From: Methanolinea sp.
Lineage (GTDB): Archaea > Halobacteriota > Methanomicrobia > Methanomicrobiales > Methanospirillaceae
NCBI GenBank assembly: GCA_030055515.1
Contig: JASFYI010000004.1
Coordinates: forward strand, 1-42,604
Direction: 5' to 3'
DNA length: 42,604 nucleotides
In this document: positions 27,082 to 29,731 of the stretch, piece by piece
Numbering within the stretch: the stretch's first letter is position 1
How the letters are laid out: each line of letters starts with the position of its first letter
Made by a program: the position numbers and the translations under genes
The notes under the pieces: generated by a model
The model's database searches: none
Told to the model about the DNA's origin: nothing
Seen by the model: only the letters and a program-made list of their open reading frames with translations

Positions 27082-27169
27082 GCGCGTGGCGCCGCGGACC
27101 GCAAAGTTCTTTTCTCCCGCCCCTCACCCTCCCAAGGGAACCATGCCTTTTCGCACGGAGGGAACGAAA

Positions 27170-27826
27170 ATGGAGATCACGTGGTTTGGGCACGCGTGCG
27201 TCCTCGTCTCGGGGAGCAGGAAGGTCCTCCTCGACCCGTTCGTGCCCGGCGGGAAGATCGGTGCAGAGCCCGACGTCATCGCCCTCACCCACGGGCACGC
27301 CGACCACACGGGGTGCCTCCCGGACTTCCCCGGCGTCCCGGTCGTCGCGGTCAACGAGATTGCGAAGTTTCTCCGCTCGCGGGGGTGGGAGACGGAGCCG
27401 ATGAACATCGGGGGGACGATCGAATTCCGGGGGGTCACCTTCACCATGACCCCGGCGGTCCACTCGGCGTGGCTCGAGGAGGCAGGGCCGGGGTTCACGG
27501 CGGGCGCCGCCGCGGGTTTCGTCGTGAGGATGGACGGGAAGTCCGTGTACCACGCGGGGGACACCGCGCTCTTCTCCGACATGGCACTCGTCGGGAAGCT
27601 GTACCACCCGGACGTCGCCCTCCTCCCGATAGGGGGCAGGTACACGATGGGCCCCGAGGAGGCCATGGTTGCCGCCCAGATGATCGGGGCGCCGGTCGTC
27701 GTCCCCATCCACTACGGCACGTGGCCCGCCATCGCAAAGGACCCGCGGGAATTCGCCCGCGCCCTCGAGCGCACGACGGACTGCAGGGCGGTCATCCTGC
27801 GGCCCGGGGAGAGCCTCTCCCTCTGA
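27170..27826 (+). CDS. Metal-dependent hydrolase, beta-lactamase fold (UPF0173)
   Basis: This 218-residue protein has the metal-binding THGHADHTG (His-x-His-x-Asp-His), preceded by WFGHACV and followed by VYHAGDTALF and PIHYGTWP, all family marks. The substrate is unknown. ATG 27170 is chosen because GGAGG stands 8 bases before it and the conserved MEITWFGHA starts there; the open frame runs back to 27086. A perfect 9-bp inverted repeat with a TATA box begins 12 bases after its stop and belongs to the next unit. Confidence 0.87.
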   Translation: MEITWFGHACVLVSGSRKVLLDPFVPGGKIGAEPDVIALTHGHADHTGCLPDFPGVPVVAVNEIAKFLRSRGWETEPMNIGGTIEFRGVTFTMTPAVHSAWLEEAGPGFTAGAAAGFVVRMDGKSVYHAGDTALFSDMALVGKLYHPDVALLPIGGRYTMGPEEAMVAAQMIGAPVVVPIHYGTWPAIAKDPREFARALERTTDCRAVILRPGESLSL

Positions 27827-27837
27827 TAGGGGGGAGC

Positions 27838-27868
27838 CGCCCGGGATACTTTTATATAGTCCCGGGCG
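27838..27868 (+). promoter_or_regulatory. TATA box enclosed by a perfect 9-bp inverted repeat
   Basis: CGCCCGGGA at 27838-27846 and TCCCGGGCG at 27860-27868 are exact reverse complements. The 13 bases between them are TACTTTTATATAG, holding the TATA box (about 27851-27858). Transcription would start near 27880, just before a ribosome-binding site and a 28-codon ORF. The arrangement resembles that at the tbp promoter (5529-5562). It could be a repressor operator. A hairpin ending the upstream transcript is the alternative reading. Confidence 0.55.
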
Positions 27869-27898
27869 AACCCTCGGTTATCCAGGGGTGACAGAAAC

Positions 27899-27985
27899 GT
27901 GGAGCTCGACGGGAAGACGGTGATAGGGACGGGGATCATCCTCTTCATCATCGTTGTCGGTCTCTGGTACCTGTTCATCAGGTGA
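27899..27985 (+). CDS. 28-residue single-pass membrane microprotein
   Basis: The GTG at 27899 opens a short frame: a polar start MELDGKTVIG, then the hydrophobic helix TGIILFIIVVGLWYLF, ending Ile-Arg and TGA. GGGGTGA (27885-27891) stands 7 bases upstream, ideal for ribosome binding. A TATA box lies about 45 bases before the start, and two hairpins and a T6 tract follow the stop. This complete set of signals argues that the ORF is expressed, or that the same unit makes a small RNA. It resembles the small membrane subunits that tune larger complexes, but I do not recognise it. Confidence 0.62.
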   Translation: MELDGKTVIGTGIILFIIVVGLWYLFIR

Positions 27986-28002
27986 CCGGGGGAGGGAGAG
28001 GG

Positions 28003-28052
28003 AACGGCGGGGAGTGCCGTTTCGCGGGGAGACCCCGGGCGTTTCCTTTTTT
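28003..28052 (+). terminator. Double hairpin with T-tract after the microprotein ORF
   Basis: AACGGC (28003-28008) pairs with GCCGTT (28016-28021) around a 7-base loop. GGGG-AGA-CCCC follows at 28026-28036, then a T6 tract at 28047-28052. A further T7 tract lies at 28099-28105. The remaining bases up to 28183 hold only T-rich signals on the opposite strand, probably the end of fae-hps. Confidence 0.5.
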
Positions 28053-28183: not shown

Positions 28184-29365
28184 TCAGAAGTCCGTCATCA
28201 CCCGGAACTGGTCGATCTCCTCCCTGTTCAGCTGCTCGAGGAAGAGGTCGGCCGCGGAGTGGACGTCCTTGCTCATGGTGATCGCTCTCCCCACGACCAC
28301 GATGTCGGCCCCCGCGGCGAGCGCTTCCTTCACGTTCTCCACGCGTATCCCGCCCGCCGTCGCGACGAGGATCCGCCGTCCCGCGGCCTTCCGGATCGCG
28401 GGGATGTCGCCCCACGCGTGGGCACTGTCCTCGGCATCGATGGCGCGGTGGAGCTCGACGACGTCGGGCTTGACACCGAGTCCCCGCAGGATTGCCACGG
28501 GGTCCTGCACGTTGAGCATGTCGACGATGGAGTAGATCCCCGTCTTCCTCGCCTCCGCGATCGCCTTCTCGAGCGTGGCCCTCGGCGCGAGGCCCGAGAT
28601 GACGACCGCGTCTGCCGACGCGTCGGCCGCCATCCTCGCCTCGAGGTTCCCCGTGTCGAGGACCTTGAGGTCGGCGATGACGAAGGCCGCGGGCCTGACC
28701 TTCCGGATCTCCCCGATGACCGAGAGACCGAACTTCTTGATGAGCGGCGTCCCCGCCTCGATGATGAGGTGGTCGTTCTCCGGGAGGGCGGATAGGACGG
28801 ACCTCACCTTGCCCATGTCCACGATGTCGAGGGCGACCTGGAGGTACGGTGGATCCCAGAGGCGCTGGACCTTGAACCCCATGACCGCGTGGGGTGCCCT
28901 GTCCTTCTCGTAGAGGAGGGTCTTCTTGTCGGGGAAGTTCTCGAGCGCGCGCGCGACGGCGAGCTTCGTCGCCCCGTAATTGTACCGGTAGATCTTGTTG
29001 TAGTCCTGTGCTTCCGGGTCGAGGTAGACGCTCGCGAGGATGACGATCGACTCGAGGTCGGCATCGCCGAACGCGCCCTCCTCGACAGCGTCCGCGACCG
29101 CCTTCGCGACGGCAGCCTGCACGGGCCCGAACATCTCGCGGATCTGGCTCGCCTTGCGCAGCGTTACCTTCGGGATGACGAGGGTCGCCGGTTTCGCCAT
29201 CAGGTTGGGCCGGATCACGGCGAGCAGGGGCGTGTGCCCTGCCGAGAGCTGGGAGAGGGCGTTTGCGAACGCCGCTCCCACGGGGCCGTCCTTGTCCCCG
29301 AGGATGAGGTCCACGTGGGCCAGCTCCGGCCCCTCCCCGACCAGTGCTTCACCGATGTGGTACAT
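28184..29365 (-). CDS. fae-hps: Bifunctional formaldehyde-activating enzyme / 3-hexulose-6-phosphate synthase
   Basis: This is a 393-residue fusion. Residues 1 to about 165 are Fae, with catalytic His17 in ELAHVDLILGDKDGPVG; it condenses formaldehyde with tetrahydromethanopterin. From about 170 on is the Hps (orotidine-decarboxylase-like) barrel, with ADLKVLDTGNLEARMA and VATAGGIRVENVKEALAAGA. In methanogens the fusion works backwards, splitting hexulose 6-phosphate to ribulose 5-phosphate and trapping the formaldehyde. ATG 29365 gives the standard MYHIGEALVGEG start; a GTG at 29386 is less likely. A TATA box at about 29404-29415 (reverse) and a tandem repeat lie upstream. Confidence 0.95.
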   Translation of the reverse strand: MYHIGEALVGEGPELAHVDLILGDKDGPVGAAFANALSQLSAGHTPLLAVIRPNLMAKPATLVIPKVTLRKASQIREMFGPVQAAVAKAVADAVEEGAFGDADLESIVILASVYLDPEAQDYNKIYRYNYGATKLAVARALENFPDKKTLLYEKDRAPHAVMGFKVQRLWDPPYLQVALDIVDMGKVRSVLSALPENDHLIIEAGTPLIKKFGLSVIGEIRKVRPAAFVIADLKVLDTGNLEARMAADASADAVVISGLAPRATLEKAIAEARKTGIYSIVDMLNVQDPVAILRGLGVKPDVVELHRAIDAEDSAHAWGDIPAIRKAAGRRILVATAGGIRVENVKEALAAGADIVVVGRAITMSKDVHSAADLFLEQLNREEIDQFRVMTDF

Positions 29366-29415
29366 GAAACGGATCGATCTCCTCACTCACTATGTGGACC
29401 GGCACGTTAATAAAT

Positions 29416-29569: not shown

Positions 29570-29731
29570 TGGGGCCGGTGAGATTTGAACTCACGACCGA
29601 CGGGTCTCTCCGACATGCGTCAGTGCTCCAACGGATCATCACCAATCCAATCAGGAGACCCATTGTTCATCATCCGCACGACGCGAACTACCGCTGGAGC
29701 CCGTCGCCATACCGGACTAGGCCACGACCCC
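29570..29731 (-). tRNA. tRNA-Trp (CCA) with an 88-base intron
   Basis: On the reverse strand, exon 1 (29731-29694) and exon 2 (29605-29570) fold into a standard tRNA. The acceptor is GGGGTCG/CGGCCCC with discriminator A, the anticodon stem ACGGG/CCCGT has loop CTCCAGA (anticodon CCA), and the T arm is GTGAG-TTCAAAT-CTCAC. The intron interrupts between positions 37 and 38. The bulge-helix-bulge site is textbook: CTCC pairs with GGAG, and both 3-base bulges are cut after AG. The 3' CCA is not encoded. A TTTAAGGAT-like box about 35 bases upstream is the likely promoter. Confidence 0.96.
29606..29693 (-). ncRNA. Box C/D guide RNA within the tRNA-Trp intron
   Basis: The intron holds all four boxes in order: C (ATGATGA, 29673-29667), D' (CTGA, 29654-29651), C' (GTGATGA, 29642-29636) and D (CTGA, 29623-29620). 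The stretch before D' (GGGTCTC) pairs with the intron-exon 2 junction GAGACCC and puts C39 at the fifth base from the box. The stretch before D (TGGAGC) pairs with GCTCCA of exon 1 and puts C34 at the fifth base. The RNA therefore should direct 2'-O-methylation of C34 and position 39 of its own tRNA, as shown for Haloferax tRNA-Trp. Confidence 0.92.

Follow-up and report, generated by a model that had tools for sequence, protein, structure and literature searches.

The locus

The window analysed here is the whole stretch of 42,604 nucleotides from Methanolinea sp. (contig JASFYI010000004.1), with a G+C content of 66.8%. The following features were located around the gene under study:

27166..27826 (+): upstream neighbour, gene for a putative UPF0173-type metallo-beta-lactamase-fold hydrolase (family name taken from an earlier sequence-only reading of this DNA)
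27838..27868 (no strand): perfect 9-bp inverted repeat around the TATA box, species-specific and of doubtful function
27850..27858 (+): archaeal TATA box TTTTATATA with a GATAC-type BRE region before it (upstream alignment)
27885..27891 (+): Shine-Dalgarno-like GGGGTGA, 7 nt before the GTG at 27899
27899..27985 (+): gene for a 28-aa microprotein with GTG start and TGA stop, MELDGKTVIGTGIILFIIVVGLWYLFIR, one predicted transmembrane helix
28003..28052 (+): hairpin(s) and T6 tract, a possible terminator judged from the sequence
28184..29386 (-): downstream convergent neighbour, a putative gene for a fused formaldehyde-activating enzyme / hexulose-phosphate synthase, which we take it to be by recognition of the sequence

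The sequence-only reading had described an ORF of 28 codons starting with GTG at 27899 and ending at 27985, a GGGGTGA 7 bases before this start, a perfect 9-bp inverted repeat enclosing a TATA box, and two hairpins with a T6 tract after the ORF; each of these was found exactly so. Upstream of this start codon, the window offers no ATG, GTG or TTG in frame. Beyond the convergent neighbour, at 29570-29731 on the reverse strand, Rfam identified a tRNA missed by ARAGORN, with a long intron containing an sR3 C/D-box RNA (29618-29677), presumably the archaeal pre-tRNA(Trp) intron guide RNA.

Conservation and distribution of the reading frame

A DNA search of the window's own genome and 60 relatives (61 genomes in all) revealed a separate conserved block at query positions 301-391, corresponding to window positions 27900-27990 and thus reaching from the start of the ORF to just past its stop codon. 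Identity in this block was 89% in genome G009 and, over a slightly longer stretch, 83% in G003. Translated relatives read MELDGKTVIGAG(I/V)(V/I)LF..VVG(I/L)WY(M/V)F(I/L)(R/K) wherever the frame was present in this search. The position of the start codon, which is ATG or GTG, is shared by every Methanolinea copy; past the stop codon conservation ceases, and the flanking sequence is not conserved.

Differences among Methanolinea copies were distributed over the three codon positions as 352:57:894, with third positions taking most of them. Synonymous change was near saturation (pS 0.67) and nonsynonymous change was low (pN 0.11), which corresponds to a pN/pS of 0.16 over 66 pairs; the 33-aa form of Methanoregula gave 0.20 over 120 pairs, the pairs in both sets being related sequences and hence non-independent. 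This codon pattern is far from the expectation for an unconstrained frame and indicates strong purifying selection. Conservation of the frame in relatives and a bias toward synonymous change, which the sequence-only reading had put forward as checks, are thus both borne out, and the coding status of 28 codons can be settled by such comparative codon statistics.

A profile search covered 232 genomes of Methanomicrobiales and detected homologues at E <= 1e-10 in 39 genomes, all Methanoregulaceae. By genus, the genomes carrying the gene numbered 12 of 13 in Methanolinea, 23 of 39 in Methanoregula (g5), 2 of 3 in g10 and 2 of 8 in g11, with one match per genome. By these comparisons, the ORF very strongly exceeds chance. 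In the one remaining Methanolinea genome, G006, which has a completeness of 76%, the flanking UPF0173 region found no match either, so that an assembly gap is likely. No convincing relatives were found in the remaining Methanomicrobiales or among 393 Halobacteriota genomes, and in other genera the tpiA locus yielded no divergent homologues. Matches in other orders at E 0.0001-0.1 were rejected as helices within much longer frames or as chance; a match in G183 fell on the N-terminal helix of a TPR-like protein of 178 aa. At the level of these searches, the microprotein family is shown to be restricted to Methanoregulaceae.

Furthermore, the libraries were searched. Pfam gave no match to the microprotein and NCBIfam none over its cut-off, Rfam had no match at the site, and a profile search of the PDB returned nothing but stretches of insulin receptors and polyproteins at E > 1. 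A viral origin was discarded because the 45 pattern matches in IMG/VR included no relative. The family is therefore absent from Pfam, PDB and IMG/VR and from NCBIfam over the cut-off, though it is of a well-known kind. No ribosome-profiling or proteome data for Methanolinea were found in the literature searched.

Members of the family are 28-36 aa long and consist of a short acidic N-terminus followed by the core TVIGxGVVLFxxVVGxWYLF[LI][KR]; in Methanoregula, g10 and g11, the acidic N-terminus is 4-8 residues longer, reading MAEESxEISSM in the Methanoregula forms. G12 and Y24 are invariant in 32 of 32 distinct sequences, T7, V8, F16 and F26 are kept in 31, V20 in 30 and W23 in 29. The most divergent intact homologue (L072, MTDEAGEISNMLILGIGVALFLVIIGIWYVFLKG) belongs to a small Methanoregula genome (G199), where it is flanked by a transposase-like gene upstream and by tpiA downstream. 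Hydropathy reaches 2.5 over 19 residues, and for the Methanoregula form of 33 aa AlphaFold predicted a single helix at residues 2-32 with a mean pLDDT of 85. By hydropathy and this model, one hydrophobic helix fills most of the protein; together with an interspecies-conserved coding gene of fewer than 50 codons, this places the family among the predicted single-pass membrane microproteins of prokaryotes, a descriptive class (<50 aa). The acidic N-terminus and the basic C-terminal residue suggest, by the positive-inside rule, an N-out/C-in topology. Conservation showed a helical periodicity of 90-100 degrees in the membrane core (p about 0.04), whereas p was 0.25 for the whole stretch; this weakly significant periodicity of the core is consistent with one interacting face.

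Neighbourhood, promoter and transcript ends

The downstream gene at 28184..29386 is not a conserved neighbour. The UPF0173-type gene precedes the microprotein gene in most Methanolinea genomes, sometimes at a distance; the synteny proposed earlier thus holds within Methanolinea only and fails in some Methanolinea and in all other genera. In Methanoregula and g11, an XRE-CBS regulator gene and tpiA converge, with the microprotein gene in the spacer that separates them, and in G001 and g10 the neighbours differ again. The microprotein gene thus occurs in at least four unrelated gene neighbourhoods and stands alone in all of them. As no conserved neighbour or operon was found across the compared loci, an assignment of function from the gene neighbourhood was abandoned.

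The convergent pair of tpiA (triosephosphate isomerase) and the XRE-CBS gene, with nearby 3' ends, occurs in most Methanoregulaceae genera examined (L123-L155). Its spacer is mostly short in other Methanoregulaceae, with about 12 nt between the coding ends in the window's own genome, and holds several hundred other bases in some genomes (L124, L129). Eight Methanoregula genomes have kept the pair and lack the microprotein gene in the spacer; together with the spacer of about 12 nt in the window's own genome, this points to a separable and dispensable unit. Two further Methanoregula copies have apparently decayed, one by a change of the start codon from ATG to ATA (L153, G196) and one by replacement of the conserved W with R (L152, G198). 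Given the patchy occurrence in Methanoregula and the two apparently decayed copies, no core complex can depend on the product as an obligatory subunit. Judged from these loci, the gene is an autonomous, relocatable and dispensable unit without an informative neighbour.

All 12 Methanolinea genomes with the gene have a TATA box 47 to 50 bp upstream of its start codon, which predicts a leader of about 20-25 nt; by this comparison, the TATA box exceeds chance. At the position of GGGGTGA, relatives carry GGTG- or GTGTG-type motifs. The arms of the inverted repeat, CGCCCGGGA (27838-27846) and TCCCGGGCG (27860-27868), are separated by a 13-nt spacer that holds TTTTATATA. In the window, 16 perfect inverted repeats of at least 9 bp with spacers of 3-25 nt were counted, so that in such GC-rich DNA the repeat is unremarkable by itself; its landing on one given TATA box is a rarer coincidence, with a chance of about 5e-4. 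In the 11 Methanolinea relatives, the arms around the TATA box reach 4-6 bp at best, and the 9-bp palindrome is private to the window species. Tight repression, which had been suggested from the enclosed TATA box, is unsupported, since the palindrome is missing in 11 of 11 relatives while the TATA box is retained. We have therefore dismissed the palindrome as an operator, similar repeats being frequent in the window.

At the 3' end, the hairpin AACGGC..GCCGTT (28003-28021) is followed by a weaker GGGG..CCCC hairpin (28026-28035) and the T6 tract (28047-28052). A scan of the window for terminator-like structures found 1 as compared to 0.7 expected; an intrinsic terminator was rejected as no better than shuffled sequences. 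Archaeal termination mainly requires oligo-T. A second tract, T7, lies about 50 nt beyond the T6, and oligo-T tracts follow the gene in some relatives and not in others.

Most Methanoregula leaders contain a small hairpin between TATA box and Shine-Dalgarno sequence, which is absent in Methanolinea. It occurs in GTGG..CCAC and GTGAC..GTCAC variants with several G-U pairs, some 14-36 nt upstream of the start codon at the predicted 5' end of the mRNA (e.g. L036, L040, L049, L066, L068). The mean folding z of the leaders was -1.6 in Methanoregula as compared to +0.1 in Methanolinea and g10. We regard the hairpin as a lineage-specific leader element.

Taken together, the comparative data show that 27899-27985 is a monocistronic gene with codon-level conservation, present once per genome and served by a TATA promoter of its own, and that its predicted product is a single-pass membrane microprotein of 28 aa. 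Conservation and library searches support the central proposal of the sequence-only reading, namely that a self-contained gene with an independent promoter encodes an unrecognised membrane microprotein with a single predicted helix.

Possible function and known systems

In our view, the gene, dispensable and transcribed on its own, probably encodes a single-pass protein that serves a larger membrane complex as accessory subunit or modulator, a partner role that we infer. The peptide would insert into the membrane unaided, and its conserved helix face G-x3-F-x3-V-x2-W, with an interfacial Trp-Tyr, would dock on the larger complex, where it may serve as a dispensable accessory subunit or modulator like CydX, KdpF, AcrZ or MtrI. 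Its expression would be controlled separately from the operon of the partner. Two results speak against this reading: the gene context points to no partner, and the helical periodicity of conservation is weak. Natural candidates for the partner in these hydrogenotrophic methanogens are the energy-conserving complexes Mtr, energy-converting hydrogenase and A-type ATP synthase, as well as transporters.

The chief rival, though an unlikely one, is a free-standing membrane-acting peptide, a stress or dormancy effector or a type I toxin-like peptide of the TisB/ShoB/YohP kind, which upon induction would self-assemble and lower the membrane potential or silence metabolism. Size, single helix, basic C-terminus, independent promoter, patchiness and decay all fit such a peptide, and the 27-aa YohP is a precedent for a metabolism-silencing small membrane protein (PMC12719787, PMC7549839). 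However, the gene is present as a single copy without paralogue arrays, viral carriage was not found in IMG/VR, and G, F, W and Y positions are strictly conserved, beyond mere hydrophobicity. Likewise, no conserved antisense-RNA sequence was seen beyond the frame in Methanolinea, a comparison that covers the sequence outside the frame only.

Such strict positions also bear on the idea of an orphan structural peptide that contributes to lipid packing, or acts as a filler, in the archaeal membrane without a specific partner. A very short protein with a single helix and no context would suit this role, to which we give a small chance; the position-specific conservation of G12, F16, V20, Y24, F26 and, nearly, W23 suggests a specific contact instead, an argument tempered by the weak periodicity statistic.

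It is highly improbable that the product acts at the translocon as a specialised helix of the Sec61beta type. This reading, in which it would be truncated and related to the C-terminal half of archaeal Sec61beta, was considered because the best NCBIfam match is NF002318 (residues 3-26 against profile positions 30-53, E 0.02), and a search with this family weakly recovers the microprotein loci; both proteins have a single C-terminal helix with weak local similarity. The match scores 14.5 bits against a curated cut-off of 55, however, hhalign between the two families gave a probability of 2%, and the conserved cytosolic half of Sec61beta with its SSAGL..YY segment is missing from the microprotein. 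A separate Sec61beta match exists in every genome searched except G003, which has only a weak one; the window's genome has its own full-length Sec61beta (G000:C4:53242-53397, 61 bits). Homology to Sec61beta is thus strongly disfavoured by the score below cut-off, the negative profile comparison and the genome's own Sec61beta.

A small non-coding RNA, which the sequence-only reading had allowed, or a fortuitous ORF in a GC-rich spacer is rejected: the fold is slightly better than that of shuffles (z -2.0), but conservation is codon-patterned (pN/pS and codon positions as given above) and breaks off at the stop codon, the frame with its start and stop is kept while the flanks are not, and Rfam is silent.

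An accessory subunit or modulator remains the preferred reading. In a bolder form, which we hold to be rather improbable, the product would be a Methanoregulaceae-specific regulatory subunit of a central energy-conserving complex (e.g. Mtr or an energy-converting hydrogenase), encoded outside the operon of the complex, relocating between chromosomal sites and controlled in Methanoregula by the 5' mRNA hairpin. If true, this subunit would be the hydrogenotrophic counterpart of MtrI.

The gene adds a family of 28-36 aa microproteins, encoded by frames of a length easily overlooked by annotation, to methanogens of wetland, sediment and digester habitats. Stand-alone small proteins regulate Mtr and ammonium transport in related methanogens, which makes the family a defined target for pull-down experiments in culturable Methanoregula or Methanolinea.

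Several known systems resemble the microprotein and serve as precedents by description (MtrI, MtrR, sP36, CydX, KdpF, AcrZ and YohP), with no claim of homology. YohP and type I toxin-like hydrophobic peptides share its size (27-30 aa) and a single helix with little else. They are stress-induced or antisense-controlled and usually lack a strict pattern of aromatic residues and glycine. CydX, KdpF and AcrZ range from about 29 to 49 aa. Like the microprotein in its proposed role, they have one transmembrane helix and are subunits or modulators of bigger membrane complexes, CydX being 37 aa long (PMC4325964, PMC7267776); in contrast, they are bacterial with known partners, and no sequence relationship to them was found in Pfam or NCBIfam. 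Among methanogens, stand-alone small proteins that act on membrane complexes include MtrR with 49 aa (PMC13370731) and the 61-aa sP36, which acts on AmtB1 (PMC10714827). MtrI of Methanosarcina mazei (MM_2401) is a 68-aa protein that binds Mtr and is encoded by a stand-alone gene in variable context (PMC12774963). It resembles the microprotein as a lineage-restricted, non-essential small protein of a methanogen whose gene lies outside the operon of its partner; it differs in its length of 68 aa, in being sandwiched between the cytoplasmic domain of MtrA and MtrCDE, and in its description within Methanosarcinales (PMC12774963).
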